NCBI GenBank assembly: GCA_902728285.1
Contig: CACVBU010000046.1
Span: 1,677,968 to 1,741,967, forward strand
Source of the DNA: Clytia hemisphaerica
Taxonomy: Eukaryota; Cnidaria; Hydrozoa; Leptothecata; Clytiidae
Direction of reading: 5' to 3'
Length of the DNA stretch: 64,000 nucleotides
Position 1 is the stretch's first letter. Every line of letters begins with the position of its first letter. The notes below the pieces were generated by a model. It made no database searches, was not told the origin of the DNA, and saw nothing but the letters and a program-made list of their open reading frames with translations. Positions 8,220-28,192 of this stretch are shown in pieces. The translations under genes were made by a program, and so were the position numbers.

Positions 8220-8226
8220 TCTAAAC
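8220..8226. repeat. Left target-site duplication of the P-like transposon
   Basis: TCTAAAC immediately precedes the left terminal inverted repeat starting CATCGACC at 8227. An identical TCTAAAC follows the right terminus at 28186-28192. P elements usually make 8-bp duplications; 7 bp are visible here. Confidence 0.7.
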
Positions 8227-8240
8227 CATCGACCTCTAAC

Positions 8241-8583
8241 GGGGGGGGGGGGGTTTCAGGGGGTACCCGACTCCGCAATTCCGCCAATTTTTTCTCCAAT
8301 TTCCGTCAAACCGTCTTAAATTGAACTAAAATTCCGTCACCGAAAATTCCTTTGAAATTCAATATTTTTGTCGAAAATTCCGCAAATTTTGAATATTTTT
8401 TACCAATTCCGAAATTCCGCAATTTTTTTTGCTAAATTCCGTTTTTCCGCACTAAAATTGTCTAATTTTCCGTCTCCGTCAGAGAACCCAATTTCCGTAA
8501 TTCCGTCTAAATTTTCGCCAAATTCCGCCACTCCGTCCGAAAAAAGGGCCGATTCCGCTCCTCCGCCAACCATGAAACCCCCC
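8241..8583. mobile_element. hAT-like MITE inserted in the P-like left TIR
   Basis: A G-run at the left and a C-run at the right (GGGGTTTCA.. and ..TGAAACCCC) bound 343 bp made of repeated short AATTCCGC/ATTCCGTC-like phrases. The 8 bp before it, CCTCTAAC, is nearly repeated after it as CCCCTAAC. The undisrupted site is present in the other TIR (28155-28180), so the insertion is directly demonstrated. There is no coding capacity. Confidence 0.75.
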
Positions 8584-8880
8584 CCCCTAACGGATGGACG
8601 GATAACTCATTGTTTTCAAGCGCGTTGGTTTTATTGTTCCCGAATCAATAGAATGATCACGTGATCATTGCATCAGAAAAATTCGAGGTCTCGATTACCC
8701 AAGCCTCCAACTACTTCGCAAGTAAGAGGAAAACTGAACCACGGTACGCTCAGAATAAAAACAAAAATCATTTAGTCGCGCGGCTGAGGTCGAAAAAAGT
8801 GGCTAGAAAATGATTTTCGTGATACACCTCTTAGATTCCACTTTTTTCGATGGAAACTCTCGAATTAGTATATGTAGATT

Positions 8881-9417
8881 CCAAAATCAAAAAGTTTCCA
8901 CGATATTATCGTGCAAGTAACGAGTAAATGGCGATTTTTTGCGTTTCCAGGCAAAATTGCAAGGCCTGGAAATTCATGATTTTTGGGGGGTCTTCAAATT
9001 AAAAAAAGACCTATATCACATGATAGAGCTCTTCAAACTGAGCAAAAAAGTGTATTACACCAAAGTCCCAACTTCTCTAGATCAAAAGTTATGGGCCTAT
9101 TTGTGGTCAAAAAGGTGTTTAATTTTGCATAAATTAATGCAGATTGTGGGGAAATTCCCTGTTTTCCATCAGTTTTTTACCACAAATAGGCCCATAACTT
9201 TTGATCTAGAGAAGTTGGGACTTTGGTGTGTAATACATTTTTTTGCTCAGTTTGAAGAGCTCTATCATGTGGTATAGGTCTTTTTTTAATTTGAAGACCC
9301 CTCAAAAATCATGAAAAAAAATGAATTTCCAGGCCTTGCAATTTTGCCTGGAAACGCAAAAAATCGCCAATTACTCGTTACTTGCACGATAATATCGTGG
9401 AAACTTTTTGATTTTGG
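8881..9417. repeat. Near-perfect 537-bp palindrome (hairpin element)
   Basis: The left arm (8881 to about 9105) begins CCAAAATCAAAAAGTTTCC and the right arm (about 9178 to 9417) is its reverse complement over about 225 bp, with a loop of about 75 bp. It sits in the left arm of the foldback element. The matching place in the right arm (13830-13855) lacks it. No direct target duplication is seen; instead the CAAAATCAA next to the insertion point appears inverted on the far side. Confidence 0.8.
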
Positions 9418-9425
9418 CATACAGG

Positions 9426-9805
9426 AAAACTGGGAGCCGGGAGGCGGGAGGCTGAACCGGGAGCCGGGAGTCGGGAGGCTGAAATCGAAAGTGGGAGGCG
9501 GGAGGCGGGAGGCGGAGGGCTGAAAACGAAAGTGGGAGGCGGGAGGCTGAAATTGAAAGTGGGAGGCGGGAGGCTGAAAACGAAAGTGGGAGGCGGGAGG
9601 CGGGAGGCTGAAAACGAAAGTGGGAGGCGGAGGCTGAAATTGAAAGTGGGAGGCGGGAGGCTGAAAAAAACGAAAGTGGGAGGCGGGAGGCTGAAATTGA
9701 AAGTGGGAGGCGGGAGGCTTAAAACGATCGTGGGAGGCGGGAGGCTGAAAACGAAAGCTGGGAGGCGGGAGGTGGGAGTCGGGAGGCTGAAATCGAAGGT
9801 GATAT
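9426..9805. repeat. G-rich minisatellite, left foldback arm
   Basis: Tandem copies of a unit of about 27-28 bp of the form GTGGGAGGCGGGAGGCTGAA plus AACGAAA or ATTGAAA. Some copies have extra GGCGGGA hexamer-like duplications. The strand is strongly purine-rich with regular GGG tracts. The inverted counterpart is at 13441-13816. It gives long apparent open frames on both strands that are not genes. Confidence 0.85.
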
Positions 9806-10109
9806 AGGCTGAAAACGAATAGACCAAAGGCCGAAAGCGAGAAAACGAATAGACGAAAGGCCGAAAGCGAGAACCAAGTTGCAAAGATAAACAAAATCTT
9901 GTGAAGATAAACAAAGACAACGGTTTAAAAAGCACTCTCACGAGTTCCATATCGTTTGTTAGTATACACTTTTTCAATTATAATAAGGATCCTTACGGAG
10001 CCTGGAGTATTTAATTGATCTAAACAGTTAGCCTAGCCCATGAGGTCCAAGGTCAGTTCACTCGTATATGCAGTAGTGTTTTTTATAAGGATTTTTGAAT
10101 TAAAAATTT

Positions 10110-10190
10110 CGTACGGGCTCGATAGTACATTGCTAGCGTGCCGGACTCAGAATCAAAGACAAGAGACTTTGGTAGTTCGAGCCGGGGTCA
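10110..10190 (+). ncRNA. tRNA-like sequence, possible SINE head
   Basis: The stretch CTAGCGTGCCGGACTCAGAAT resembles an A-box-containing D arm plus anticodon stem, and TAGTTCGAGCC about 45 bp later resembles a B box; an A-rich run follows near 10205. The match to a canonical tRNA cloverleaf is poor. A tRNA-derived SINE or degenerate tRNA relic is more likely than a functional gene. Confidence 0.3.
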
Positions 10191-11248
10191 AATTTTCAGT
10201 TTTGAAAAAAAAAAAGTCGCAAGGCGTTCTAATCATTTAGCTACAGTTCACTCTTGGTGTTTTCAAGTTAGTCTTTAATTATTGGAAATATGAATTAAAA
10301 AGGAAAATACTTTCATTTGTCTTTTTTTCTACGCTCAATGTCAATTTTCAGGATAGGACTCGAGGTTTGTTTACATCAGAGGAAATCCCGTTCTATTTAA
10401 TTGTTAAAAAAATTCCATGACACACCATTCGAAAAAGTAGAATAATTGGGCTTTCCACAAGTATATTACTTTTTGATAAATATAACGAGATTGCTCACGG
10501 AAATATCTAACCCGGGCCTGTCAATCATTTTCTAGACCTGTCAATCACTTTTTTGGCAGCATATTCAGTCAGTTTTGCTTTTCTTTTCGTCGTGGTTCTG
10601 AAAAAAGTGTTTATAAGATATAATAAAAAAAGACAAAAGCCGATTTTTTAGCATTTTTTTAGTTGAAAGTTTTGGAACATTAGATTTTCAAGACAAGGGA
10701 AAGTCATAACTCTTGAGTCTTGACTCTCCACCCGCTAATCAACCTGATCCATTTTGAAATACTGTACTTGAATCAAACTGCATTGAGCTGAGGTGACACT
10801 CCCGGGGGGGTTACCAATTGACAGTATTTGCGGCAAAAAAATTGGCTTTTAGAATCGCACCCTTACAGTGCATTTATCAAATCAAAAGTCCACCCTTTAC
10901 AGTGCATTTCTGATAAATTGGAAAACATACCCTTAACCGTTATCTGGTACCAGATGTGGAAATATGCTACGACACGCTTTGCTCTAAAGGTCCGGCATAT
11001 TTTATATTGGTCCGCTCCTTTAGAGCTTTAGCGTGGGCGGCCGCCAATACGCCATCGGAATATCAGATAGCCTAAACCGCTGCAGATACCCGTCGCGGCG
11101 TCGGTCAATTTGCCTGACTGCCCCCCCCCCAATTTTTGTTTCTTAAAATTTTAACGGAAATTTTCAAAAATATCAATAAGAGCTCATGAAACCAGAAAAA
11201 GTTTGATCAATGTTGACAAAACAGTCAAAATAACACAATTTTCGTCGC

Positions 11249-11335
11249 ACCCGTATAGGATTCAAACTCTCTATAATCATTACCCTTAAGTTGCCGTTTC
11301 ATCGACTTATCCACTCGGCCACGCAGCTGATGTGC
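11249..11335 (-). ncRNA. tRNA-Leu/Ser-like sequence or SINE head
   Basis: Read on the minus strand, it contains TGGCCGAGTGGATAAGTCG, the type-II tRNA D-arm/A-box pattern of Leu and Ser tRNAs, a possible long variable arm, then GTTTGAATCC, a B box. The acceptor stem does not pair cleanly. The position inside the foldback element suggests a tRNA-derived repeat or pseudogene. Confidence 0.4.
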
Positions 11336-11689
11336 AAGAGAAGTGAACAATGATTATCATGAGACCTTTATTTTGCCATGACTTGTATAATTTTACCCTG
11401 TCAAGGTATTGACTTCTTAAAGAAATGATTTTAGATTATTTCCAACATGCAAGAGCCGATTGCACTAAATATATATAACACTCGAAAACTATCATGTTAT
11501 ATTTTTTTGTAATTAAATCTTGCATCAGCAGTTTCGAAACAAAAGCATGCTATATTTTTATGTAAAGTTATTTTTATAAAGAGAAACGCTTCCTAGGATT
11601 AAAGGAAAATAAAACCAGCTGTGCTGGAAGGTCAGCCCGAAAGGATAAGAAAGATTAGAAGATAAGAAGATTAAAATAATTAATTCAAG

Positions 11690-12100
11690 GAAAACTAGTT
11701 GTCCCTTATTTTCCAAGGAAAATTAGTTATCGCGTATTTTCCAAGGAAGATCACTAGACCGTATTTTCCAAGGAAAATCACTGGTCCGTATTTTCTGAGG
11801 AAAATAGTTGTTGCGTATTTTCCAAGGAAAATTAGTTGTTGCGTATTTTCCAAGGAAAATTAGTTATTACGTATTTTCCAAGGAAGATCACTAGATCGTA
11901 TTTTCCAAGGAAAATCACTGGTCCGTATTTTCTGAGGAAAATTAGTTGTTGCGTATTTTCCAAGGAAAATCCTTTGTTCCGTTCTTTCCCAGGAAAATCA
12001 ATTTTCACGTATTTTTCAAGGAAATCAATTGTTCCCTATAGCTAATTTGCCAAAGGAAATCATTTCTGTCGTATTCTCCAAGGAAAATCACAGCACTTTA
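11690..12100. repeat. 28-bp tandem repeat (TATTTTCCAAGGAAAA)
   Basis: About 14 copies of a unit near 28 bp: GTATTTTCCAAGGAAAA followed by a variable TTAGTTGTTGC or TCACTAGATC spacer. TTTTCCAAGGAAAA is itself palindromic, so each unit can form a small hairpin. Copies diverge towards both ends. No gene overlaps it. Confidence 0.8.
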
Positions 12101-12949
12101 TTGATTTTCTTTTGAAAGAAAAGGTATTTCCCTTGCAAAAAATACAAAATAACTGAAATTCCTTGAGCAATCATTAGTTGAATTTTTCTTTTTGAAAAAG
12201 AAGATTATTATTCCCTTGAGAAACACACAGAAAATCAATTTCCTATGCGAAAATTCATAGCCTGTCTTATTTAATTGGAAATACAGATTTTATTTATTTT
12301 TCTCTTGGAAAACTGCTCAGAATGATGATTTCACAAACTGGGGGGAGGAGTCTTCAAAAGTCATGCATCCGACATGTTCTAGTCCAACAGCTAAAAAGTC
12401 CGATAAGGCAATCGAAGGTTGCTCCAGTTTTTCCGAACCGATTTTGTCCGGCAAAAAGTGTCAAAAGAATATTTGTTTCAGAAAAAACGTTATTAGCCTG
12501 TCTGACTAGCCAACCAATTTTTAACACTTAGGCGGAGGACCGTGTCCGTCTAGTACAGACTTTTAAACTAAATTTAGGGAAAAAATCTCTCAAAGGGTCC
12601 CAAAATCATCAAAATTTTGTCTCTCAAAGGGGCGATTTTCGATTTTTGCCTCGGACATACCTGTCACCTTGCAAACCTAGTACCCCCCCCCGGAGCATCC
12701 GTACCCCTTTTTGCCAATATCCCCCCATGTATATCTCGAGGAAAGTGTATTGGAACTTTGTGATTCAAAGACAGATTTTGGATGAAAATTGTATCAAAAG
12801 TATCAAAAGATTAAAGGACAACAACAAGATCTGCTATTTACAAAGATAAATTTCTCGTCCTCCGTGCTTGAAAAATCAATATTTTTGATTAGGTCTGAAA
12901 TATTTTTGATCCCTGTGGATAGATTAGTTTAGGAAAGAAAAAAATACTT

Positions 12950-13022
12950 ATGGGGGAATCGAACCCTGGACCATCTGACCTGGTATCTGATGCTCTACCG
13001 CCTGAGCTAATTAACCGTATCT
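12950..13022 (-). tRNA. tRNA-like gene or pseudogene
   Basis: The minus strand reads TTAGCTCAGGCGGTAGAGC (clean D arm and A box), an anticodon arm TCAGA-TACCAGG-TCAGA, then GGGTTCGATTCCC (perfect T arm and B box). The anticodon stem has one A-A mismatch, and loop position 33 is A rather than U. The nominal anticodon would be CCA. It is therefore more likely a tRNA pseudogene or a tRNA-derived SINE head than a working tRNA-Trp. Confidence 0.5.
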
Positions 13023-13440
13023 GTTCTTCGAGAGCAAATGTTTTTATATTACCATAAAAAGTAATAAAAAATGACGTAATGTAATTGCGTAAAACATTTT
13101 CATTCGCGCATACAAAACAATAGGCAGGATTTTCATTGTTATTTTGTCGATACTGGCGTAATCATTTGAGAGTATTCCGATCAGAATTACAACTAATACT
13201 TGCTTAGCGCTAGCCATAAGCGATGCTAGGTTCTAGAAATCCGTTCGGGAATGTTTTGCCGAAAACGTAAATCGGGGAAACACTTTTTTTGAACGGAAAC
13301 GGATGATATTCAAAACATACTATTTGAAATATTTTTTTTGATGGATTGTGTGTGTTTATAAAAAATAAATGATCTGATTTTTCTCAGCTCTTTGTTACCT
13401 ATCCCTTGACCAAAAACGTTTGTGCGTGGCCTTATAATTG

Positions 13441-13816
13441 AGCCTCTCACTTTTGTTTTCAGCCTCCCGCCTCCCACTTTTGTTTTCAGCCTCCCGCCTC
13501 CCACTTTTGTTTTCAGCCTCCCGCCTCCCACTTTTGTTTTCAGCCTCCCGCCTCCCACTTTCGTTTTGAGCCCCCGCCTCCCACTTTCGATTTTAGCCTC
13601 CCACCTCCCACTTTCAATTTCAGCCTCCCGCCTCCCACTTTCGTTTTCAGCCTCCGCCTCCCGCCTCCCCCGTTTTAGCCTCCGCCTCCCACTTTCGATT
13701 TTAGCCTCCCGCCTCCCACTTTCGTTTTCAGCCTCCCGCCTCCCGCCTCCCACTTTCTATTTCAGCCTCCCGACTCCCGGCTCCCGGTTCAGCCTCCCGC
13801 CTCCCGCCTCCCAGTT
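13441..13816. repeat. C-rich minisatellite, right foldback arm
   Basis: Tandem units CAGCCTCCCGCCTCCCACTT plus TCGTTT or TTGTTT, the reverse complement of the array at 9426-9805. The apparent proteins on both strands (PPTFVFSL-type and VGGGRLKT-type) are translations of the repeat and have no other support. Confidence 0.85.
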
Positions 13817-14030
13817 TTCCTGTATGCCTTGATTTTGTAATCTACACATACTAATTCGCGAGTTTCCGTTGTTTTTTTTGGAATCTAAAATATGTATCAC
13901 GAAATGAAACGTTTTTCGACCTCAGCCGCGCGACTAATTCCTGAGAGCTGACTTTCTTGTACTTTCTTGCAACTTTATTGGCACAATTTACTTTTTTAAC
14001 TTTGGTTTTTGACTTCTTGTACCTTTGATA

Positions 14031-16464
14031 ATGGACGAGTTCACCGGTGAAAACATTATCGACTTTAATGAAGAAGAATACAGCCAAGAAGAATTAGAAG
14101 AGCTTTTCGTTGTTACAGAAAATGTTGGTAGCAAGGTTCAACAAATAGACCTTTTCGCCTTTGCGTCCGCCATATTGAATTGTATGCAAAAATTATGGTT
14201 GCCGAATTGCCGTGGTGAAATTCCCTTAGAAAGTATGCAAAACATATGCAAAAAGAAAGTATTAAATAAAAACTTACATGCATAATTGGCATTATATTAA
14301 AATGTAATCTTGTAGAAGAAAGATTAAATTTGCTTCTCTTGAAAACTAAAAACAATTATATTCACTCATCTCTTAGAACAAGCACTTCAAAAGACCATAA
14401 CATTAGACAGAATCTCAAACTGAAAAATCACCCGCGAAGGTAAAAAACAATCCTTATTCGGCTGACGGCAAATTATTCTCCTGGGAATAGAGCCGCCAAA
14501 TGATCAAATCAAAACATTGATAAAGTGTGACGTCACAATTACTGCTTTCAGTTTGCGTGTTTTGAAAGTTTGATGTGTGTACTCCGTCTTTGTGGAATTT
14601 CTTAATGGCATGAAAACAGAATATGCAATGTCTTTAAGAACAAATTCCTAAAAGGCTTTTGTTGTTCTGTAAATATTTCCTTTTGGATTAAGAAATTCCA
14701 TCTTTTATTGTTCTAATGATTATAATATTTATTTATAAGATGCTTTGTTGTCTTTTTAATCTTTGTGTAAACTTGCATATGTTTTGCATACATTCCAACT
14801 AAATCCAACCACGGCATTTTCGTTCCTGTATTTTTGCATACAATTCAATATGGCGGACGCAAAGGCGAAAAGGTCTAATAGACTTTGAGATTGAACTTTC
14901 TGGTAATGAACAAACAATTCTTGCAAATGAAAATGCTGTACTGTCGACTATCCCAGCAATAACCTTTGTAGATGACAGAGATGTAGATTTACTTGACGTT
15001 CCTGCGATTCGGTTCTGTCCAGACCCTGCTGAAGTTTTCAAAGATGTTTTTGTATGCAGATGGTGTAAGGAGACGTTCAGTAGCAACACAATTATGAACA
15101 ATCACTCAAAGAAATGCTTTCAAAATCCAGCTAGGCGAACAAAGCAAGGACATAAAATTGGTAATTTCAGAATCCAATTAATTTTTTTTTCTTTTTAAAG
15201 TTTGTTTTGGCACAGTCTGATCTGGACCTCTTAGAGGACATACACACACACAGTTGACAAATGTTTTTGAGTGATGCACACTCAATGTATCAAGTTTTAT
15301 TTTCTACAAATATTTGCTGACCATTTGTAGTACCCTTTTAGCTTCTCTGGTCTTCCCACATCCTACCTTAACACAACAACAGTACAAAGTAATATTATGC
15401 TTGTCTTATGATTACTCTTTACCTCTTTTATAGTGCTTAATGAAACCGAGCTGAAACCATTGGAAAAAGAAGCAGGGAGCCACTTCACAATCGCACTAGA
15501 GTTAGCCATCAATGACAAGATCCTCAATCTCAAACATGGAGAAGAGCTGACTCCAGGAAATCATGCTGCAAAATCTGCTAAATTCATTCTAGAAAAATCA
15601 GACCTCGTGTCAAATGAAATGAACACATTTGCAACACATATTCAATCACTCTTGATTCCATCTGTCAATACAGACTTTTGCTCAGAAGCTAGGCAAATCG
15701 GTTGCACAAAATTTTCAGCAGTAACTATTAGTAAATCTGGAAGAAGCAAGTTTGCCACAATTTTTGATAAGTTGCTTATGAATAAAGATGGATTTGATGT
15801 TCTTTACACCTTCATTGTCACAAAAACCTTTTCCTTGATCCTCAAATGGAAAAATGATCAGCTTATTGAACCCTCCAAGATTGATTACACCAGAGTGAGC
15901 TTCACGTCCGAAGAGGAAAAAGTACTCCGATATGTTGCTGGTTTTATTCCTTTTTCCCTTAAAAAAAGGTTTTCTCGTGTCAAAGAATCTGAACTTAAGA
16001 AGGCTGCTCTACAGATAGTTGATAATTGGTGTCTTGATGGAGATGAAAAGGATGCAACCGATTTTTATGATTACACGTTATCATGGACAAACCGAATAAA
16101 TAGAGGAGGACTAATGATTGTTAAAGAACCATTTTATGTTTTCATTAGACGTATTGAAACTTATGTACGGGAAGTTTTAAATGTCACCCTGATTGAAAAC
16201 TACAATGGAGAGGACTTGAGGGATATCATTTTAAGCAAGCTTTTAAAAAGCATGAGCATCGAGAGCACATGGGCCTCATTGAGTAGAATGGTTGTATCTG
16301 AAAAACTTAAAATGACTTTAAAAGAAATCATTTTAAAGAAATGGGTGAATTTGCGCGTACGTTCCTTTGTAACAGCCTGGATTCAAGTTGCTAAATTACG
16401 CCATACTGAAGATAAACTATCAAAAAAAGCCGAAGTCGGTTTGAGGAAAGGTCTCAGTGCCTAA
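14031..16464 (+). CDS. Companion gene of the P-like transposon, split by a MITE
   Basis: With the MITE at 14147-14876 and one of its AAT duplications left out, exon 1 is 14031-14146 plus 14880-15160 and ends at a GTAATT donor (phase 1). Exon 2 is 15434-16464. The joined frame is open for 475 residues and the lengths divide by three. The N-terminus is acidic. A C2HC-type finger (C98, C101, H114, C118) follows, in a FVCRWCKETF context. Exon 2 holds VLRYVAGFIPF near residue 295 and NRINRGGL near 354. These resemble the YVAGY and RGGL motifs I associate with the C-terminal region of P/THAP9 transposases, a part missing from the transposase on the other strand. A DNA-binding or accessory role in transposition is inferred. 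The present copy may be broken unless the MITE is removed by splicing. Confidence 0.65.
14147..14876. mobile_element. MITE inside exon 1 of the companion gene
   Basis: Inverted ends AGACCTTTTCGCCTTTGCG (left) and the matching right end at 14858-14876 continue for about 50 bp each, through GTCCGCCATATTGAATTG. AAT flanks both sides (14144-14146 and 14877-14879), a 3-bp duplication as made by PIF/Harbinger-type elements. Removing the element plus one AAT restores an uninterrupted reading frame. No transposase is encoded. Confidence 0.8.
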
Positions 16465-18468
16465 TTTTTTTTATTTTATATATATTTTTTACAATGTTTT
16501 TTTGAAACAGGCAGAAGCAAATGTCTTTTTGTTGCTTTTATTTATATATATCATTAATACTTACATGGGCTTTATATTCTTGTTTCGACAAAGATTCCAT
16601 TTCATCACCTCCTTGCAATTTGAAATTTCTTTACTGAGGGGCACAAATGAGAACCAGGTGCTTAGTTTCCAGATGTGGGATGATAACCTTTTAATAAAGT
16701 TAGCCTTGTTAATGGGGTCAAGCTTGAGTTTTTACAAGTTCTTTGATGACTCTGTTGGTCGTTAAATGTTGAGACAAACGATTTTATTACTTTTTCTAAA
16801 GAACGCGTTATCCCTATTGTTTAAAAATAACCAATCAGTTTTAAGCATCTTGTAAAAACTCCAAGGCATCTCTGTTAATGAAATTCGATTTGAAACTATT
16901 TGGAGTTCTGGTTTTTTTTTAGAGTGGCAATGGAATCTCACTTTCAGAAGTTGAATCTAAAATGAAATGGTTTTTTTTAGCTTTTTCCTCGTAATTCATT
17001 CTGAGGGCCTACTGTAGCAGTTTTTTATTTTAACATTTTAAGTTACACTATTTGCTGGTGTACTGTAAACAACTTTTCTTCTTTTGTTAAATTATTTTAT
17101 TAACATTAAAAGCCCTTATTATTAGTATTTCAAATTCTGATGGAATGGTTGAGATTTTTGGCATGTAGATGAACCTCTCGTAGCCTTGAGCTTGACCTCA
17201 TTTGGTCCTAACTTTTTTGCAAAATGGTTCGTATTTTCAAAGTTCTAGCATTGACCTTTTTTCTGTTATTGCTCAATTTAATTTTGTTGCTGACTTTCTC
17301 CATCCTAAAGATGGCATCTACAGGTCGTAAGTCAAACCTCTAGTGACACATTTTTTAGATTTGTAATTTTGAAATAAGTGCTTTCTTTTTAAATAATAAA
17401 GAAAACGAAACGACCGATTTGGTCGATCACTTGAAACATTTGATTTCCTTTTTACTTAAATTATATGATGTAAAACTGATGGCTAGGCTAGTATCATAAT
17501 TATTTGTTCTTTAAATGTCATTTATTTCTTTAAATGATAACAACTTTTGAATTCTTCTTCTTTCGGTGAGCGTAAAAATAATTGGATCTCTAAAGCCTTA
17601 GCCAAAACGTTTTGTTTCTTTCTTTTGTATCCCTGCATTAATCACATTTGGCATCTTTTCCGGTCTTTTAAAAGATCCTGAAAAATGAAATCTTTGGCCA
17701 GGAAATATGTATGATCTGTTACTAATGATTCAATTTTTATAATCTTTGGCTCGCACAGCACTGGTCCAGAACTAAGATATAAGAGTTCGATAGGAATGAA
17801 TTGACAGTTAGCTTCTGATTATTAAATGTCTTTTCCAGGACCACAGTTGACTGGATTTAATAATAACTTTAGATCTACAGTTTGAAAATTAAATCTGACA
17901 ATGTATAATCATCGCATATAAAACTATAAAATACCGCAACATAAATTGCATCACTATTGTATTCTCAGAACAATGATTAACGCTTTTTCATAAGAACATG
18001 AGACTCATTTTTGGCTGAAACCTTATTAGAACAATTTGAGCCTTAGATTTGAAAAAAAACTGGCCCAGAAAATGCTAATTATAAACCCTTTTTAAGTCAA
18101 TAGGTGAGTGAAATGAGCATGTTAAGAACTAAAGAATCTAAAAATATTCGAAAAATCAAGAGCATTCAAGCCTGGACCAAAATTTACTGCTCTAATAAAA
18201 AAGTGTGTATACAATAATAAAACTATATAAATACTAATTTTAAGATCTTTTTATAAAAAATAAATATCTAAAAACGAGGCTCCTTCAATTCAAAAGTTAA
18301 GAAGTTTTAAGTAGTCAAAGACGAACGTGCATTCCAACAAGTTCAATTTTTCAATTTGATTAAATGAATATTCCACCACTTTTCTGGAGAACAAGCAAAA
18401 GATTAGTTCAAAATTCATTCAGAAAAATCATTCGTAATGTCAGTAACAATAAATTGTCTCATGATGGT
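16465..18468. other. Space between the two convergent genes of the P-like transposon
   Basis: About 2 kb of AT-rich sequence between the stop codon of the companion gene and the stop codon of the transposase. It should hold both 3' untranslated regions. I see no further gene. A short open frame at 16457-16765 is hydrophobic low-complexity sequence without support. Confidence 0.5.
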
Positions 18469-21400
18469 TCATGGCTTACTTCTCTTCCTCGTCGGTAATC
18501 GTGTCATATCCGTTACGTCCAACGTGTGTTGTTGACGGTCCTTTTTGTTTTTTCGGACATTCCCGTTCAAAACCTGGAGCAGTTCATCTCCAGTAACATC
18601 GAGCGCTAAAACGTTACGATTTACCATATTAAGGTCTGGATTTTCATTTGAGCCTCCCTTTGCTCGTTGCTTCGAGAAATACTCTTCCACGGGGTCCTGC
18701 GATATCTTCTCCGAGAGAAAGAACCCTGCATTCTCTTCATCAAAGAGTAATTTCCCCAGTTTGATGAATGACATTGCTGCAGGTAAAGAAAATCAATTAC
18801 TAGATTTGAAAATGAACTCAAATCGCATGAACTTTCCCCTCAAAAAATGGGCAGATTGAAAAAGGAAATAACGTCACAATAACACTCTACCTTACGTATA
18901 ATATCGACCTTATCGATCTTCAAAACGAGGAAGATTATCATACTGTATGCCATACCATAGCAAAATATAGTAAGAAAAAAGTTCAGCCTAAGTTATAGAC
19001 AGCATAACCAAACGGATAATGGGTCCTAAGACCTTTTAGTACGAAATATATAGATATATATACAATAGCCTGATACTAATGTGGTTGATATTTGCTTCAA
19101 GAATGTATCTTACTTGTTATGCGCAATCCAGTTAATGTTTGCTTGGAAAGCTTCAACCTGGCTTTTTCGTCAGCCTTCAAGTTTTCTTGGATGTTTACTT
19201 GGTCATCCCAATCGTCAAAAAACTTTAAGAATTTCGACTCGAGCCACTGAAAATAAAATCAATATTCTAAATTTATCGAAGAGCTACAACTGCATTCAAT
19301 ATATAGCTCAAAAATATTTATAAGCAAAAAGCTTTAGATCCATATTGTTCAGTTGTGTTTTATATGGTACTTTGTATTTTGCTAAAAAAAATTATCAGAT
19401 AAGAATTATAGTTTCTAAAGATTTAAAAGCTCACCTCAAACCGCCAATCACTTGAGCTGGTGTACTTGTCTTTTGCTCTCTTTCCTGTCTTGTTAACGAG
19501 CTGCGAAACATTAAGGCAATCAAAAAACTGGTCCATCAAGCGTATGAACTTTGAAAGCGATTCTGTTCCAGAACTTTCACCAGCTTCCCTTTGTTCATCT
19601 AGCATATCAGCAACGGTGCTACTCAAAACCTAAAAGTTTGAATAATAATCCTAGCGAAAAGAAATAAACTTTTTGGGTTTTCCATGTTATCAGATGATGG
19701 AGAATTAAGATTTTATAGCCAGAAAGGAGTAAATGATGGCTTTTGTCAGTTTCAGTTTAAAAAATGACCATAACTTCGTGAGCTACCTTAAAATGAGCTA
19801 CTTAAAATATTAAACACAGAAATCAGCAAAAATAATTTACTTAATTCATATCACACTCTACCTGGGCTGCAAGATTTACACGCATTCTGCTCCTTGGATC
19901 TAGTTTTATGTGTTCCTGCCTGAGTTTGTGACCGAACCGGATTCCAGGGCAGTATCTAGAAGGTCCAAGATCCCAGTCGAATACATTGCTTATTTGGTGC
20001 CATCCCATATCTTTTCCATCAAACTATATAATAACAAAAAGAATCTTAACATGTTTAAAGCTTGTTTCAAAATGAAAAGAAGGGTACTGATTGAACCTGT
20101 TAAAATTAGATCTTTCTCTTGAAATCAAGCTCTTATTAAATATGTAGAACATTTTCAATGTGAGCCATTATGTTCAAAATTTTAATGTAATGTTTTCAAC
20201 TTAAAATTATGGAAAAACAAAGCTGAAAAGCAAAATCAAGTTACAACAAGGGTTCTGCTCTCTTTGTTGGCGTATGAGTTCTCCAAGTTATTTCTGGTGG
20301 TTTTCATAAGATGCGGAGGGTCTGAAAAAAAGTAGATCTTTCTCATCGTGGAGTATGCCCAAGGGTTGTATGCCCAGTATACATGACCGTGGAACAGGTT
20401 GGAAGTGTCGTCATGAAACTTGTGTAATTCAAAGAATTTCCTGTTCGGAGTAGCTCCATCTGCTGTAATGCATCGAACTTTCAAACCAAGACTTTCTAAA
20501 ATACCAGTTGCTTCATGGGCACAGTAGAAAATTTGATCTGAAGTGAAACCCTCACTTGCGAAGTGCCCAAAGACATATTCCAGTCCTGAACAAAGCCCAC
20601 GTGCCATAAAAACCATGACATATTTAGCAACAGATTTTTCTTTGACACCATCTTCTGAGCAAAACCTCTCAAAGCGTTCCAAGTCATCGTTTATCTCACC
20701 CATTTCTGTGAATCCAACCAACTTTCCTGTCAACTTATCAAAAACCAAGCCACTCTGAAAACAGTAAAATTAGTTCCTAAGTTTTGAATTCAGAAAGATT
20801 AAGAACAATAAATACAACAAAAATTAGGTTCTGACTTTCTCAGGAATAGAATACAACAGCATAATAAACCATTTCAAACTATGTCTATATCAACTTCTTC
20901 CTTCAGACTACATCAAACTTACTTTAATCTTCATTTCGTCAAAAACCAATCCAACATTACACTGTGCCTCTTTTGTACATGTTTCCCTCACTTTCTTCAA
21001 AAGACGCTGAATAATATCTGGGTTGAAACCACAACCAGGGGTAGTAAAGTTTATATATTTCAAAAGGGTACTTTTACAGGGGAGATACATAAATGGTCCG
21101 GTTTGTATATGTTTGTAAGTGGCTGGTGATTTGAGATATATACTCAAACTCCACCTGATGATGAGTGGATGCCATCGCATTCCTCTGGGGTCTATACTTG
21201 CATGCTTTTTTTGCTCATTCCAGAGCAAATTTTGGGGACTGTCCTCCTTGAATGGGTTGTCATTCTGTTTTAGAACTGCACTACAAAGATTTTGGGTGGA
21301 TTTGTCAAGGTCAACACCTTCTGAAAAAACTTCTCTTCTGACATACTTCTTCATAGAATTGTAATTACGAACAATATTCGCCTTTTCAATCTGTAAAAGT

Positions 21401-24400
21401 TCAATCTTTTTTATCAATTGCTCACGATCCAAGTATCTAAAATGAAAACAGTTAGACGATCAGCCCTTTCTAACCCAGAAGCTTTTTTTTAAGGATTTTG
21501 CTACACAAACACACATCAAACCATGAAGGTCTCATGAATGATCATGAAATAAAATCTTTTGTTAGTAGTGCGAAATTGGAAACCTGTTATTTGTAGTGGG
21601 AAGGATAACATCTTCGGTAGACTTTCTCTTTCTTGACCGCATTGCAAATAATGTTGACCGATACTTTGAACATGTATCACATCTATCTCCTGTGCAATAG
21701 AATATGAAATTCTTTTGAAACTAACCATGTTATTATGATTGAAAACTAGGCTACAAATCAATCGATTTAGTCCACCAGTAACTATTATCTTAAATAACAC
21801 TTATATCTAAACTCAAATTGAAATCACAAGTTTAATTGAGGTAATATAATTTGGATTTTCAAAATATCTTTGCTACTGTAATTCTATTTGTAACCTCATA
21901 CAAGCATCAAGCATACAGGAACAACTATATTATGTTGTTAGGGTAATAACATAAATATTCAAAACCAACCTTTGCTGGGATCAATAATCAAATCACAGTT
22001 TTCATGTCGTATTGTTTTCATGTCAAAGAAGGTTTTGCCATCTGAGGTTTCTAATTGACTTGTAACACTTTTATCCGTTGATAGAAATTTGAAATTATCT
22101 TGGTTGCCAACCTTTCTGGAAACTAAATCTGGAAAGTCTTCATTACCTTTACATATATTAGATTGGTGTAATGCTTTAAAGAATTCATCTGTATTTTTCA
22201 ATGTAGCAATATTTGGAAAATTAAGACTGGCCAATGCCTCCTTTAGTATGGGTTTGCCATGAATTGTCACACAATATTCACCTGTTTCAAAAATCTCCAA
22301 TGTTTTGGTAACCTCTGATGAATGAAAACCATAAACATTCTGCCTGACCTCCTAAAAATCAATGAAAACAATATTTCATAGAATTTATACATGTTTCTTT
22401 ATGTTGCGCATTGACTTACTGCTCAGAAATCTAAGATTTTTTTAATTTCAGGCTTATGCAATCTGATTGAATTGTTTCAATCAAGTAGAGTATCTAATTA
22501 AAATATATCAAAGGTAAAAGTTAAATATTGAACAATTGCCACATTATTGAAAGTAATAATTTGCCAAATATTTTTTAAGCAAATTACTCAAAGAAATAGT
22601 ATCCTTAAGTAGTCAAGGAACAGTATATTAAAATCCCGGGGGGGGGGTACTACCCTTGTCGACCGACGGGGGTGCTCCGCTGAGGTTCGAAAAATGGACC
22701 CTACGTGGGACTCAAAATTTGCGAAAAAAGTGACCCCCAAATACCCCCACAAGGACTACCGCTCAGACCACCATTCCAAATCCCTCAACTACCATTCAAC
22801 CCAATGCAAACATTCCAGTAGTAAATAGCTTTGCATTTTTTAACATACAAGGGCTTTGTCCACAAACAGTACCCAGCAAAGTTCCCTTTATTAAAGATAA
22901 TGTTTGTAATGAAAACCAACTTTTTGTTGGATTGTCAGAAACTTGGTTATATAACCATAAAGACGCAGAACTTAAAGTAGAAGGTTTCACTCCCTTCCGA
23001 TGTGATTCAACAAGAAAGAAGAAATCTAGAGGCAGATTTACTGGTGGAGTTTGTTTTTATGTCAGGGATGATATTGCAGCTTCATGCGAAAAAATCTATT
23101 CTCACTCCTCGCCCAGTGTACAACTTCTTTGCCTATACTCAAGCATCGAAAATATGGCTATCCTGGTAGTCTACCGACAACCTGACGACAAAGCAAATGG
23201 TAATCCTTCAACCGCAAATGATTTTATCATTCCTATCAATGGTGTAAAAAATGCACTTTCAAAGTTAGAAACCGTACCAAATATCATTTTTGGAGGTGAT
23301 TTCAACCTTCCAAAAGCAACTTGGCCTGAGGGCCTTCCAAAATCAGGATGTACTATCAACGACCGTCTTATTCTAAACTCTTTGAATCAGTTTTGCAACG
23401 AATACTTCATGTCACAATATATCGATTTGCCAACACACAAGGACGGAAATACATTAGACCTTGTTTTCACTAACAACGAACAAATAATACACAGCTACAC
23501 AACAGTACCTGTATTGCAAAGCACATCTCATCACGAAATTGTACTAGTATCAACAACTCTGAAAGTTCAAAACTCCTTTCTGGACGACGATCAACAAGAG
23601 CCACGCACAAAATTCAACACACTGAATTATTTTGCTGATGACATTGATTGGGAAACTATTAAAAATGATCTCAAATATGTCTCAACAATGGCCAAGTGAG
23701 TTCGATACTGAAGACCCAGATGTTATTTTGGAAACCTTCAACAACATATGCTACAGATATGCGAAAGCAGAGTTCCCGTGAAGGCCAAGACCACATCAAA
23801 AACGAAATCAAAAGCTGAGAGATACCGTCACTCTCTTACAAAAAGAAGAAGAAAAATTAACAAAAAAAACTTTTACACACCAACTCCAAATCCAAGAAAG
23901 ACAAGATAAAAGATGAACTTTTACAAATTGAGAAAAAACTTCAAAAAAAAATCTTTTAATGAGTCAAAGCGTCACGTGGAAAGCAAAGTGATTGACTCAA
24001 TTAAAAAGAATTCAAAATATTTCTTTACCTATGCAAAAAAGAAATCGAAAATTCGGTCTAATATCGGACCCCTATTGAATTGCAATGAAGAACTTACACA
24101 AAGAAGCAAAGAAATGGCTGATCTCTTAGCCGACCAATATGCTAAAGTGTTCAGTAAACCAAAGCAACCACAACCACAACCTAACCAAGACAAAACAAAC
24201 GTCAAGATTGATGAGATTAACATAACAGAAGACTCAATCGTTAAAGCAATAAATGAGCTGTCTCCATCATCTTCTGCAGGACCTGATGGATTTCCAGCTA
24301 TGTTTCTCAAAAAATGCAAAGATGAGTTATCCGTTCCACTGTGTTTACTCTGGAAGAAAAGCCTAGAAATAGGTCTTGTTCCAACTGAACTGAAAAAATG

Positions 24401-27400
24401 CACCATAACATAACACCAATTCACAAAGGAGGAAGCAGATCTCTGGCTGCCAACTACAGACCTGTTGCACTCACCTCGCATGTGATAAAAATTTTCGAGA
24501 AAATATTGAGAAATCATATTGTAAATCACATGAACAACAATGACCTTTTCAATCCAAACCAACATGGTTTCAGAAGTGGGAGATCCTGCCTTAGTCAGCT
24601 TCTCGAGCAACACGACCTCATTCTTGACATATTAGATGAGGGTTTGAATGCAGATGTTGTTTACCTTGATTTCTCAAAGGCTTTCGACAAAGTCGATCAT
24701 GCAGTTGTACTTGGGAAATTAAAGCAATTGGGTATATCCGGACCAATCCACAGATGGATTGAATCATTCCTTACTGAAAGATATCAAACAGTAATAGTAA
24801 ATGGTGTCAAGTCCAAAGCCCAGAAAGTAATTTCAGGAGTCCCTCAAGGCAGTGTATTGGGACCTCTTATATTTCTAATATTGATTGGTGACATTGATGA
24901 AAAAGTACTGTACTGTATATTGAAATCATTTGCTGATGATACACGTGCCACCAAATCAATCAAAAACACAAAGGATGTTGAAATTCTTCAAAAAGAACTA
25001 GAAAAAGTCTATGACTGGACTGAAGAAAAAACAACATGAAACTAAATGACACAAAAGTTTGAACTTCTACGCTATGGTCCAGATGAAGAAATAAAAAACC
25101 AAACTCACTACAAATCCCCTTCAGGAGAAAATATCGAAAGGAAGAAATTTGTGAAGGACCTGGGAGTACTAATGTCAGATGATGCTGTCTTTACACATCA
25201 AATAAATTCAGTCATTGAGAAAGCAAAAAACTTGATTTCCTGGATTCTGCGGACTTTCTCTTCGCGTTTACCCCAACTAATGCTTACTCTTTACAAATCA
25301 TTGGTTATTCCAGTCATTGAATATTGCTCAGTCCTATGGAGTCCAAGTGCTGTCAGTTCTACCCAAAGATTAGAAGAAATCCAAAAATCATTTCTCAAAA
25401 GAATAACTGGCACTCCAAAAAACTATTGGGATTGTCTGAAAAAGCTAAAACTTTACTCACTTCAAAGAAGAAGGGAGAGATATCGGATCCTGTATACATG
25501 GAAAATAGCTGAAAATCTGGTTCCAAACATCAACAATAAATTTCAATTCAAGGAACTCCCAAGATTGGGAAGGATGTGTGTTCGCACCCATAGTTCAAAA
25601 CTACGTGATAGCACGCTTGTTGTGCAAGGTGCTAAATTATTCAATTCGATGCCCAAGAGTATTAGAGATATGAAGAATGTTACAGTCGAAAAGTTCAAAA
25701 ACTCTCTAGACAGACACCTCAGTTCGATCCCAGACGAGCCACAGATTCATGGTTACACAGGGTGCAGGAGAGCCGACTCTAACTCCATTCTTGACATGAA
25801 AACTGTTTAGCTGCTGACATCCTTCCTTATTCAGGTTTGATGGATGCAGCATTGTGGTGTGAAGCAGAAAGTTTCTTGCCAGAGCATGAAGCTCGAAGAC
25901 AACCAAAAGTAACCAAAAGTAAGTGACCCTGAATGGGACTGAAATTCCAAAATTTTCTCAAATTTTCTACTTTTTCCCCAAATTTTCGAAAAATAGGCAC
26001 CCTACGAGGGACTGATTTTTCTATTTTGGTGTTTTTGCGACCCTACCTGGGACTCATGGAGGTTAAAAAAGGTACCCTGACCAGCAGAGCATCCCCGTAA
26101 CCTATCTTGCCCTAGTACCCCCCCCCCAGTTAAAATACTTAAATAAATATTCTGTTAAGCATCTGTTGTGATAACAAACCACAAATTGAATTATGCTCGA
26201 AAACTCTTGTATCATAGGCTAAAAAATAACAGAAGAAGTTTAAAATATATAAGCTAATAAAAAATCCATACAGTACAGTAACTATATTATATAGCATAAA
26301 AATTAAAAATATGAAAACACAAATCAGATTTGTTTAAAAAGATTCACTACTGGAACTATAACAAATTGCAGATAACATACAAATGTATGATTTCTCAAAT
26401 TTTACCATCCTGTATACGAAATTACAATTGAAAACATGATAAATGATTTATATTTTATATACCTCAAAACCATACTTTAAAGCTGAATTTGAAACACTCA
26501 AATCCAAGGTTTCTTTCAGAGATTTAGTTCCTTTAATATTGTATACACCACCGACCGTACAAACCTGAAGAGTGAAGTTGAGATATAAAATTAAGTAAAT
26601 TGAAATAAGCAATATGTGACTTGTAAGTTGTAAAAAAAACCTGTATACCGTGAGATTGGGTAACTTGCATCAGTGGAGGCTAACATGCATAGCCCTCAAA
26701 TGAAAGACCTGGCTGGTCATTAAAATACAAAGTTAAATCAAAACAAAAATGGTAGAGTAGAGCTGCGAGCGGAGCTGTGTAGTTGCATTTTAATGACCAG
26801 CCAGGTCATTTATTTGAGGGCTATGCATGTTAGCCTCCACTGATGCAAGTTACCCAATCTCACGGTATATCATACAGGTTATACATTTTTTTACAATTTT
26901 TCTGAACACGTACAATGGATTAACTGACTAACTAATCGAAGTTACATTTTAACCTACACAGGAGTGATTAACCGCTGTAAAGCGGCTACATAAAAGTATA
27001 ATTAGAAAGTATAATATTTATTGTAGGGTATGATATTGAGGGGAATGAGTAGCATAAGGCTACCACAAAAACATTACTTAGATTGCTCGTTAAAAAAAGT
27101 TTTAAACTCTTTAGGTCTAGCATAAGTTCCCTAGAGGCATTTGTACACAAAATGGAAAAAGCCTTTTCAAAGGAAGGAATTACAGAATTGCATTTGAATG
27201 GGATGAATATACATACATGACAAGAACCATCTGAGGTATGCCCAGAAAAAGGAAACAAAGTCCAGTTTACTTCCTTTGGATGGTTTTTCAAGTGGTATAG
27301 CTTCATATGACATTTGTTACACAACAGTCGTGGGTGAATCTGTGCATCGTCACCATCAATGTTACCAATACCACTGCTCGTAAGGATATGTGCAAAGTCA

Positions 27401-27501
27401 ATGATTGATTTTGCATTTTTATAACCAAATTTCTCTCCCAAAGAGATTTTCCCTGCACACACCCTGCAAACTTTTGTCAGAGCATCAATGTGTTTATCCA
27501 T
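18469..27501 (-). CDS. P-element/THAP9-like transposase with RAG1-like zinc cluster
   Basis: Ten exons: 27501-27217, 26564-26463, 22351-21970, 21689-21584, 21436-20923, 20754-20245, 20023-19862, 19629-19435, 19246-19114, 18776-18469. Every junction is GT..AG, the phases agree, and the sum is 2,697 bp (898 residues plus stop). Residues 12-97 carry C12, C15, C61, C64, H88, C94 and C97 in a CRVC...CNKC...H...CHVC pattern; the last pair spans the exon 1-2 junction. This recalls RAG1-related fingers and replaces the usual THAP domain. C260/C263 and a basic SRKRK stretch follow. The RNase H-like core is recognised by VFDEMKIK (D458), ITADGATPN (D562), FFSDPPHLMKTTRN, and SQDPVEEYF with RGG-type follow-up (D824, E827), matching the D, D and D/E positions of P transposase. 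It should cut and join DNA at the element ends. Introns 1 and 2 hold later MITE and LINE insertions. Confidence 0.8.
22635..26128. mobile_element. hAT-like element with G-run ends, carrying a LINE
   Basis: The left end (CCCGGGGGGGGGTACTACCC) and the right end (..GGGTAGTACCCCCC-type, inverted: TACTAGGGCAAGATAGG) are imperfect inverted repeats. Both contain GATGCTC/GGTGCTC-like and ACCCTACnTGGGACTC phrases in opposite orientation. TTAAAAT flanks both ends (22628-22634 and 26129-26135). It lies in intron 2 of the transposase gene. Without the LINE inside it is only about 330 bp, a non-autonomous element. Confidence 0.65.
22755..25925 (+). mobile_element. CR1/L2-like LINE, nearly full length, inactivated
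   Basis: An endonuclease of the EEP/APE type comes first (22830-23699): FFNIQGLCP, SETWL, GGVCFYVRDD, VVYRQP, FGGDFNLP and STSHHEIVL match its conserved blocks. The reverse transcriptase follows in three frames (23913-24413, 24398-25039, 25046-25810): SSSAGPDGFPAMFLK, NYRPVALTSHVIKIFEK, YLDFSKAFDKVDH, SGVPQGSVLGPL and SFADDT at the catalytic site, then a C-terminal thumb/connection region. Stops at 23697 and about 23780 and frame changes near 24400 and 25040 show that it is dead. The 3' end is a short tandem of AACCAAAAGTA, like the microsatellite tails of CR1/L2 elements. It runs opposite to the host transposase gene. Confidence 0.85.
26644..26869. mobile_element. Hairpin MITE with TA-type ends in transposase intron 1
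   Basis: The arms TATACCGTGAGATTGGGTAA (left) and the reverse complement at 26850-26869 extend for about 75-80 bp each, through CAGTGGAGGCTAACATGCAT and AGCCCTCAAAT, with a short loop. Ends at TA suggest a Tc1/mariner-like non-autonomous element. It sits in the 652-bp first intron of the transposase gene. Confidence 0.75.
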
Positions 27502-27798
27502 ACCTTAACCTGCACAAGTTTATGATACTTTGTCTTATTTCAAAAGATCAATGGAATACAGTATAATAAAGAATACGTGGAATCAAAGATAAGTTTCAGA
27601 AAAAAAATTTATGCTTACTACAAACCCCAACTTTCGGATAAGTAACAGAGGCAATCCACCCTGACAACGACGTCATTTCAGGTCATTTCAGCATGATTTT
27701 AAAATAAAATGAATAGAGCCCCTAGAGCATGAATAGGTGTAAATCTCATTTATTTCCTCCAAGAAACCCTTCATCTGTCACCAACTGAAACAGCTAAC

Positions 27799-28070
27799 CT
27801 ATTCATTCAAATTTAACCAAGATATGGCTCCATCTTTGACAATCACATTTTTAAAATGAGAGCCTGTCGAGATTTCAAAGGTGCAAGTGTCGGTTGGCTT
27901 GCCTCGATGAATAAAAAGTTTGAGATTTATTCCTTCTGGATATTGGTACAACAACAATCTTTGAATCCTCTGAAAAAAACTCCATAGTGATAGCATAAGC
28001 ACAAAGAAAGATATTCTAGCTGTAGTGGTTGTTATGCAGGCGAAGTCGGAATTTCTTTTTTCGTCGCCAT
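27799..28070 (-). CDS. Small reading frame at the right end of the P-like element
   Basis: Between the right TIR and the transposase start, the minus strand has a GC-richer stretch with an ATG at about 28070, then a TTTTTTTCAG acceptor-like site at about 27970. After it an open frame reads RIQRLLLYQYPEG..FIHRGKPTDTC..SWLNLNE and stops at 27799. The composition looks protein-like, but I recognise no family. It could be a 5' leader exon of the transposase transcript, a small third ORF or chance. Confidence 0.25.
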
Positions 28071-28147
28071 GTTGAAAATCTCCAAAATTCAAATTTTTGG
28101 CGGCAACGCGCTCCCTGCACAAAGGATAAAGCCGCGCTTTGTTTTTG

Positions 28148-28185
28148 AAACAATGAGTTATCCGTCCATCCGTTAGAGGTCGATG
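28148..28185. repeat. Right terminal inverted repeat of the P-like transposon
   Basis: Inverted perfect match of the left terminus (8227-8240 joined to 8592 on): the outermost bases read, inward on the minus strand, CATCGACCTCTAACGGATGG then ACGGATAACTCATTGTTT. TCTAAAC follows at 28186-28192. This copy is the empty site that proves the MITE insertion at 8241. Confidence 0.8.
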
Positions 28186-28192
28186 TCTAAAC

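Follow-up and report, generated by a model that had tools for sequence, protein, structure and literature searches.

Structure of the Element and Its Ends

The window, that is, the whole 64,000-nucleotide stretch of Clytia hemisphaerica DNA analysed here, contains a long element bounded by terminal inverted repeats (TIRs), within which gene 1 (minus strand, 27501 to 18472) and gene 2 (plus strand, 14031 to 16464) face each other, as the first-pass annotation had described. The right TIR is 38 bp long and its reverse complement reads CATCGACCTCTAACGGATGGACGGATAACTCATTGTTT. The left TIR consists of the identical 38 bases in two pieces, 8227-8242 and 8587-8615, interrupted by a 344-bp repeat insert with G/C-run ends; the two halves overlap because the insert has produced its own target duplication, CTAACGG. 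This insert is repetitive, with 39 other matches at 97-99% among the best 40 of 1200 candidates scored, and the G/C runs leave its limits uncertain to within a few bases. A perfect 7-bp target site duplication (TSD) lies directly outside both ends, and the earlier claim of 38-bp inverted repeats with identical TCTAAAC flanks is thereby confirmed. The native length of 20 kb given at the same time was an overstatement: nested insertions account for an estimated 9 kb of it, and the element proper is estimated at 10.5-11 kb. The ends and the insertions are as follows.

8220..8226, no strand: left copy of the TSD, TCTAAAC, abutting the left TIR
8227..8242, plus: left TIR, outer part (sequence read)
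8243..8586, no strand: high-copy insert with G/C-run ends inside the left TIR, foreign to the element proper
8587..8615, plus: left TIR, inner part (sequence read)
8584..8701, plus: left end segment common to six short copies (97-98% over 118 bp in L030-L035)
8773..9416, no strand: palindromic high-copy repeat in the left arm, resuming past the nested element to roughly 13940 (estimate)
9417..13829, no strand: nested element of 4.4 kb whose ends are minisatellites, flanked by TTGATTTTG, foreign to the P-like element
22635..26128, plus: 3.5-kb insertion with a broken LINE (reading of open frames), missing in the C624 copy and foreign to the element
26644..26869, no strand: palindromic repeat, missing in the C624 copy
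27647..28185, minus: right end segment common to the short copies and, partly, to other two-gene loci (sequence comparison)
28148..28185, minus: right TIR, 38 bp (sequence read and genome scan)
28186..28192, no strand: right copy of the TSD, TCTAAAC, abutting the right TIR

A P-Type Transposase Ending After Its Catalytic Core

Eight stop-free transposase coding blocks are supported in gene 1, where the first-pass annotation had spoken of ten exons, with plausible splice signals at most of the borders inspected. They are listed in the order of translation.

27112..27501, minus: first block, coding for the RAG1-N/Chapa-like zinc domain (residues 1-98 hold CRVC...IHPRLLCNKC...CHVC; 3' limit approximate)
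21962..22351, minus: block lying between the zinc and the catalytic domains (homology)
21519..21800, minus: probable further block of the transposase, free of stops (aligned with the C624 copy in 93 of 94 codons)
20926..21438, minus: block with the first catalytic motif, FDEMKIK, at its end (Pfam and C624 alignment)
20239..20754, minus: RNaseH_N block including SDPPHLMKTTRN (Pfam and genome profile match)
19844..20023, minus: GTP-binding insertion domain, probably its first part (homologous in L054, L060 and C624)
19426..19629, minus: second part of the GTP-binding insertion domain (TNP-like_GBD at E=1.1e-5; the C624 copy gave no match here)
18472..18790, minus: final coding block, RNaseH_C including the DPVEEYF motif and closed by a stop (Pfam and C624 alignment)

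Pfam searches of the window exons have returned TNP-like_RNaseH_N (3.3e-12), GBD (1.1e-5) and RNaseH_C (4.9e-5, a score 0.3 bit below its cut-off), and two relatives in the same genome match the Drosophila P transposase structure 6p5a (1.1e-11 for L060, and 4.6e-5); the one window transposase exon that was compared with the PDB gave no match. The first-pass assignment to the P/THAP9 type is supported by the P families of Pfam and by these two genomic relatives. In the Pfam scans the catalytic blocks matched P-type families and no Transib/RAG core family. When compared to the C624 transposase over 790 of 932 codons, the window gene shows a dN/dS of 0.19. Judging from the predicted RNase H core and GTP-binding insertion, together with the TIRs and the 7-bp duplication, the element belongs to the P superfamily of cut-and-paste DNA transposons. 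In the four transposases that were read (the window, L054, L059 and L060, two of them diverged), a stop occurs some 45-60 codons after the last catalytic region, and a C-terminal domain appears to be absent from the same polypeptide.

The Facing Gene and the P C-Terminal Domain

The C-terminal domain (CTD) of the Drosophila P transposase, roughly 180 amino acids long, is docked on the partner subunit's GTP domain and contacts both transposon and target DNA. A candidate for this domain is found in gene 2, which would encode an estimated 490 amino acids in all and comprises three blocks.

14031..14112, plus: first coding block, acidic, starting MDEFTGENIIDFNEEEYSQEELEELF (reading of open frames; splice site putative)
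14803..15198, plus: block with a C2H2 zinc finger, CRWCKETFSSNTIMNNHSKKC (zf-C2H2_4, E=0.011, below cut-off; limits approximate)
15434..16464, plus: main exon, with a helical domain (motifs YVAGF, RGGL and RRxE) proposed to be the detached P C-terminal domain

No convincing Pfam family was found for the whole exons of gene 2 (window and L054) or for its helical domains (window, L061 and L054). The Tnp_P_element_C family (PF12596) has two matches in the genome, the better of which (E=0.05, at the cut-off) lies at C786, in a frame of 358 aa that faces a P transposase at a distance of 2.7 kb. A 50-aa piece of this diverged facing gene matches Tnp_P_element_C at 4.5e-5, above the curated cut-off, and aligns with the gene-2 profile at YIAGY. 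The gene-2 members of the window, L054 and L061 do not themselves match PF12596 and are linked to C786 through the gene-2 profile, the connection to the CTD spanning about 30 residues; compared with window gene 2 alone, P0004 was not significant, its score being reached by 7 of 500 shuffles. Neither the model of the full exon (pLDDT 55.7), searched in the PDB and a viral library, nor that of the trimmed helical domain (pLDDT 73.2, pTM 0.72), searched in the PDB, retrieved a fold with E<=0.001; the PDB chain 6p5a_A has 569 residues, and the P CTD may be missing from that chain in the fold library. When a profile built from two gene-2 members was run against the PDB, the best match was a ribosomal protein (E 0.5), and two scans of viral contigs for gene-2 relatives yielded 85 pattern matches each, none of them confirmed.

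On the basis of these comparisons, gene 2, with its acidic start, C2H2 finger and helical domain, is probably the detached CTD of the P transposase. The match to Tnp_P_element_C belongs to 50 residues of one facing gene, and from it we infer the identity of gene 2 as a whole. It has also to be considered that gene 2 may encode a separate accessory or regulatory DNA-binding protein, as in other two-gene transposons, YIAGY then being a shared motif or a chance likeness. Such a protein would agree with the lack of a convincing Pfam or fold match among the members tested, with the presence of a C2H2 finger of its own and with a length exceeding that of the Drosophila CTD. Nonetheless, four transposases stop where the CTD should come, and the facing gene at C786 matches both Tnp_P_element_C, above cut-off, and the gene-2 profile at the same motif; an accessory role is regarded here as unlikely.

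The N-Terminal Zinc Domain

RAG1_imp_bd of Pfam and the Chapa domain of PMC4411706 are taken here as the same stretch, which is our own reading. The N-terminal domain of the window transposase scores poorly against RAG1_imp_bd (E=0.17 and 0.094; 12.7 bits against a curated cut-off of 23.3) and better against Ribosomal_L24e (0.018 and 0.0067, probably by chance), and for this reason its link to RAG1 is one by transitivity. The genome holds 17 RAG1_imp_bd matches above cut-off (best 1.2e-10), six of which are overlapped by matches of the window domain. Nine of the 17 sit 1.0-2.8 kb upstream of a P transposase, three of them apparently in one open frame with it, as indicated by the same frame length (C394, 642 aa; C824, 703; C435, 701), and the other eight have no listed transposase just downstream. 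Among the nine transposase loci a convergent gene 2 was found at only four, and at C824 gene 2 lies in tandem. The window domain itself has 57 matches; 37 of them have a transposase on their own strand no more than 9 kb downstream, 29 of these 37 also with a convergent gene 2. A THAP domain was detected in none of the ten window stretches scanned with Pfam and, genome-wide, within 4 kb upstream of only three transposase places, none with a detected gene 2.

These sequence matches suggest that the N-terminus is a zinc domain akin to the N-terminal ('Chapa') domain of RAG1, the enzyme by which antibody genes are assembled, and that it stands in place of a detectable THAP. Neither this resemblance nor the probable nature of gene 2 figured in the first-pass annotation. 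The N-terminus could instead be an unrelated cysteine cluster that came to resemble RAG1 by convergence, as the score of the window domain alone (E=0.094, with Ribosomal_L24e ahead, probably by chance) might lead one to think. This is improbable given that domains at the same position in other P transposases reach 1.2e-10, above the curated cut-off, and that direct matches of the window domain overlap 6 of the 17 RAG1_imp_bd places.

Recurrence of the Two-Gene Layout

In the 417 Mb of genome surveyed, 103 gene-2 places were detected, 63 of them within 15 kb of a P-type transposase, where an estimated one co-location in 103 would be expected by chance. In 57 of the 63 the two genes converge, so that the two-gene unit, which had been proposed from position in this window, is seen to recur. 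For the remaining 40 gene-2 places no transposase match was seen at distances up to 15 kb, and of the 141 transposase places 79 lacked a gene-2 match. In the C624 copy, which is about 95% identical, the transposase and the right end are present, and no homologous left half was found in the 27 kb read there. At C792 and C432, which look like one-gene lineages, the transposase open frames likewise lack the CTD, and no clear gene 2 appeared in the roughly 1 kb read beyond them.

A scan of the genome with the 35-bp TIR core (up to 3 mismatches) found 21 matches, 18 of them exact and one being the window's right end, and a reversed control pattern found none; the window's left TIR is missing from the 21 because of its insert. 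Six paired copies without genes, 4.6-5.3 kb long, share these ends. The first-pass annotation had held that copies of the ends never containing the two genes would speak against the unit: such gene-less pairs do exist, but they look like non-autonomous derivatives. The 7- or 8-bp duplication that it had anticipated at other copies is present, at 7 bp, in three of the six (L031, L032 and L033), and the other three show none. At C154, C393, C531, C566, C797:2663195, C166 and C796 one end was found; the inward reads, about 20 kb long except at C393 (16 kb) and at C166 and C796 (10 kb), showed no second end at up to 9 mismatches. A diverged version of the window's right end is carried by the two-gene loci C250, C348, C613 and C949, these four having been seen at that end, and among two-gene copies both TIRs and a TSD have been shown for the window element alone. 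At L054, the compact C699 element, an inverted pair with an 18-bp core and one mismatch brackets both genes and was considered as a candidate for its TIRs; no target duplication supports it.

It might be argued that there is no real split, a small exon for the CTD having been missed downstream on the same strand and gene 2 being a second, duplicated copy. Genes here often have introns, and a six-frame search can pass over a short exon; set against this, a stop codon ends the last block in the four transposases (window, L054, L059 and L060), two of which are diverged, and a missed exon is considered very improbable. A chance juxtaposition in the window of two unrelated elements, or of an element and a host gene, as the transposase-only C624 copy and a left arm crowded with nested repeats might hint, is largely refuted by the 57 convergent pairs genome-wide and by the single TIR pair, with its perfect 7-bp duplication, that encloses both genes.

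A Model of a Split Transposase

We consider it likely that the element is a P-superfamily transposon of a large local clade, with its transposase split over two convergent genes and the helical domain of gene 2 descended from the P CTD. Under this model, both genes would be transcribed inward from the element's two ends. Gene 1 would encode a RAG1-N/Chapa-type zinc domain, a linker and a P-type RNase H core with the GTP-binding insertion, stopping soon after the last catalytic motif, and gene 2, in the opposite direction, the acidic start, the C2H2 finger and the CTD-derived helical domain. Protein 1 would use its zinc domain to bind the ends and would perform the chemistry, while protein 2 would join in trans in place of the P CTD, insertion giving rise to the 7-bp duplication. 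That the two proteins act together, and which of them binds the ends, is what we infer from this arrangement.

Relation to Known Transposons

The Drosophila P element (6p5a) has the same RNase H core, GTP-binding insertion and matching catalytic regions, and is likewise a cut-and-paste TIR element with shorter non-autonomous relatives. It encodes one protein with a THAP N-terminus and the CTD, and is 2.9 kb long with a 31-bp TIR and an 8-bp duplication (available text of PMC7776569); the Clytia element differs in its RAG1-N-like N-terminus, in having its CTD candidate in a second, convergent gene, and in its 7-bp duplication. Galileo, of the P superfamily in Drosophila, shares the P-superfamily transposase, a target duplication of mostly 7 bp and many incomplete copies, but has a THAP domain, and the available part of its description mentions no second gene (PMC4168063). 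THAP9 and zebrafish Pdre2 share the P-type catalytic domain with its insertion domain (PMC8230255, as far as available), and differ in being single proteins with a THAP domain (PMC7776569, likewise). RAG1, TransibSU and Chapaev have the N-terminal zinc domain (RAG1_imp_bd/Chapa; PMC4411706) to which that of the Clytia element is probably related, joined to a Transib-superfamily catalytic core, whereas the core of the Clytia element is P-type. N-RAG-TP of Aplysia is a transposon with a RAG1 N-terminal-like protein (PMC8355894, PMC2996935) and, unlike the present element, is described in the accessible passages as entirely RAG1 N-terminal-like sequence (PMC8355894). A 2015 paper stated that the RAG1 N-terminal ('Chapa') domain is encoded by no other known transposons. 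In the open-access literature, Repbase being outside the scope, neither a two-gene P element nor a RAG1-N domain on a P transposase was found.

The P-element transposase, investigated as one polypeptide chain, is the model system for GTP-dependent transposition. A split occurring in nature, if true, would offer a ready-made two-component system for probing the role of the C-terminal domain, and the convergent genes could provide built-in regulation. Where the RAG1 N-terminal zinc domain came from is a matter of debate. We see an even chance that a split P transposase carrying this domain is clade-wide, the domain being a module shared by P-type and Transib/Chapaev transposons, in which case sequences like N-RAG-TP could have been left behind by P-like elements of this sort. 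RAG1-N as a common P-transposase N-terminus in one genome would widen the set of transposons able to supply or share the domain.

Ends and Relatives of the Window Element

The window sequence has confirmed the inverted ends claimed by a first-pass annotation, with identical 38-base terminal inverted repeats (TIRs) at both ends of the element and TCTAAAC immediately outside each. A scan of the genome (one 417-Mb assembly, to which all genome counts refer) with the 35-bp TIR core returned 21 matches with at most three mismatches, against none for the reversed pattern used as a control. The element is genuine and has relatives elsewhere in the genome. The 7-bp duplication fits P-type insertion, and PMC4168063 gives the target duplication of Galileo as mostly 7 bp. 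The features of the region are as follows.

8227-28185: P-type element, between TIRs
8243-8586: insert of about 344 bp interrupting the left TIR; at least 40 genome matches, window included (best 40 of 1200 candidates scored)
8773 onward: palindromic high-copy repeat in the left arm; at least 39 other places (best 40 of 810 candidates scored)
9417-13829: 4.4-kb element nested within the palindromic repeat, with minisatellite ends and TTGATTTTG on either side
14031 to 16464, plus strand: gene 2
14145-14244 and 14760-14877: inverted duplication lying in what is presumably intron 1 of gene 2; other contigs carry it too (L036, L048)
27501 to 18472, minus strand: gene 1, transposase
22635-26128: 3.5-kb insert containing a broken LINE, as judged by ORFs
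29065-29622 and 30241-30794: 51-bp tandem repeats adjoining the element's right end; their inverted counterpart follows about 1 kb farther on
38930-54743: host gene region, including exons that encode thyroglobulin-1, Kunitz and laminin G domains, which point to a metazoan genome, and one TPX2-like exon (PF12214, E=0.0022, under its cut-off)

Six inward-facing TIR pairs, spaced 4.6-5.3 kb apart, share 118 bp with the window element at the left end (97-98% identity) and 540 bp at the right (88-89%). A protein search found no window-gene matches in these six short copies, and in the one examined for ORFs (L033) the longest overlies the shared end and the others are below 120 aa; they look like non-autonomous derivatives. 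The annotation had proposed that other same-TIR copies be checked for both genes and a duplication: the genes are missing from all six, and a perfect 7-bp duplication is present in three (L031, TTATGAA; L032, GTTGAAG; L033, TTTTAGA) and absent in the other three. The sequence flanking the left end of L031 (contig C294) is identical to the flank of L035 (C899), which suggests recombination between copies or duplicate haplotigs.

A further relative, on contig C624, is about 95% identical to the window over 18209-28185, comprising the transposase half and right end; the 27 kb examined on its left side contain no match to the window element's left half. This copy lacks the 3.5-kb insert and a palindrome near 26644, both of which therefore probably entered the window copy at a later stage. 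Its transposase has one stop and gaps, indicating a broken copy, and one window block is unmatched there. Between the two transposases, dS is 0.074 and dN 0.014 (ratio 0.19; 790 of 932 codons alignable).

The 20 kb initially claimed holds for the span between the TIRs and not for the native length, estimated at 10.5-11 kb after all insertions are subtracted; in a compact relative (L054, contig C699) both genes lie within about 6.5 kb. The left-TIR and 3.5-kb inserts are both bounded by long G/C runs (GGGGG...CCCCC) and may be one family. Each end of the nested 4.4-kb element is an array of a 27-bp GGGAGGC-rich minisatellite, the two arrays being inverted relative to each other.

A Recurrent Two-Gene Unit

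The main exon of gene 2 has 117 genome matches in 103 places, and a second gene-2 query (from C394) gave 121, mostly the same set. Sixty-three of the 103 places are no more than 15 kb from a transposase place (141 such places, drawn from 150 of 152 transposase matches), where we estimate that chance would produce about one; among the matches listed, 57 of these pairs are convergent and 6 tandem. The 57 convergent pairs bear out the two-gene unit that had been proposed from position. Same-TIR copies without the genes had been named as counter-evidence, and the six short copies are of this kind, but they are apparently non-autonomous and the two-gene pairing recurs. Among the matches listed, 40 gene-2 places are unaccompanied by a transposase match and 79 transposase places by a gene-2 match; possible causes are decay, divergence of the partner and the limits of the search. 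Many gene-2 frames of 340-430 aa are stop-free at 25-40% identity, which points to selection at the protein level.

Gene 1 and Its N-Terminal Domain

In the minus-strand window blocks, Pfam profiles detected TNP-like RNaseH_N (3.3e-12), GBD (1.1e-5) and, slightly under the cut-off, RNaseH_C (4.9e-5). The solved P transposase is matched by the related transposase locus L060 (1.1e-11) and by L054 (4.6e-5), and together these results support the claimed P-type family; a PDB search with one window transposase exon gave no match. Splice signals are plausible at most block borders inspected.

The first block carries a C-x2-C ... IHPRLLC-x2-C ... C-x2-C pattern, which we took to be RAG1-like and put to a profile test. 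Against RAG1_imp_bd, the Pfam family of the RAG1 N-terminal domain (on our reading, the Chapa domain), the window block scored E=0.17 or 0.094, ranking below Ribosomal_L24e. The same profile has 17 genome matches above cut-off (best 1.2e-10), nine of them 1.0-2.8 kb upstream of a listed same-strand transposase match; gene 2 is convergent at four of these nine loci and in tandem at one (C824). At C394 (642 aa), C824 (703) and C435 (701) the domain and transposase frames are equal in length, so that both very probably lie in one ORF. The remaining eight (C904, C735, C791, C640, C633, C26, C432 and C456), with no such downstream transposase among the matches listed, may represent Chapaev/Transib elements, N-domains standing alone or P-like copies that have diverged. 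As a direct query, the window block found 57 places, six coinciding with RAG1_imp_bd matches; 37 are within 9 kb upstream of a same-strand transposase, and 29 of the 37 also have a convergent gene 2. THAP has at least 142 genome matches (150 of 227 candidates scored), and among those listed only three have a transposase no more than 4 kb downstream. This placement, with the scarcity of upstream THAP, indicates that the predicted common N-terminus of the clade is a RAG1-N/Chapa domain instead of THAP.

Gene 2 as a Candidate Detached C-Terminal Domain

The transposases of the window, L054, L060 and another locus (L059) stop about 45-60 codons past the last catalytic region. Gene 2 comprises an acidic start, a single C2H2 finger and a helical domain, with no convincing Pfam family match at the loci tested. 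The profile of the P C-terminal domain (CTD), PF12596, has two weak genome matches, the better at C786:463749 (E=0.05, 22.5 bits, at cut-off) in a 358-aa frame; a P transposase counted as unpaired with gene 2 faces it from 2.7 kb. A 50-aa piece of this frame (150 bases read) matches PF12596 at 4.5e-5 and aligns to the gene-2 profile at LHYIAGYVVRKLYKKY (E about 2e-7, single comparison). Pairwise, it beats 500 of 500 shuffles for two gene-2 members, and its score with the window gene 2 is reached by 7 of 500. These similarities make a fair, though not final, case that gene 2 is a detached P CTD.

Comparison with Known Elements

Protein 1 would bind the element ends and cut, while protein 2 would provide the CTD in trans, its finger possibly adding DNA contacts. 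A 2015 paper stated that the RAG1 N-terminal domain, shared by RAG1, TransibSU and Chapaev, is absent from the other transposons then known; here, such a domain is borne by P-type transposases. According to secondary sources (PMC8355894, PMC2996935), N-RAG-TP of Aplysia is a transposon whose sequence resembles the N-terminus of RAG1. Literature searches covering open-access papers turned up no two-gene P element. THAP and a CTD in one chain are usual in the P superfamily, and both were looked for here without being found in that form; the window element is filed as a member of this superfamily that departs in THAP and in the single-chain CTD.
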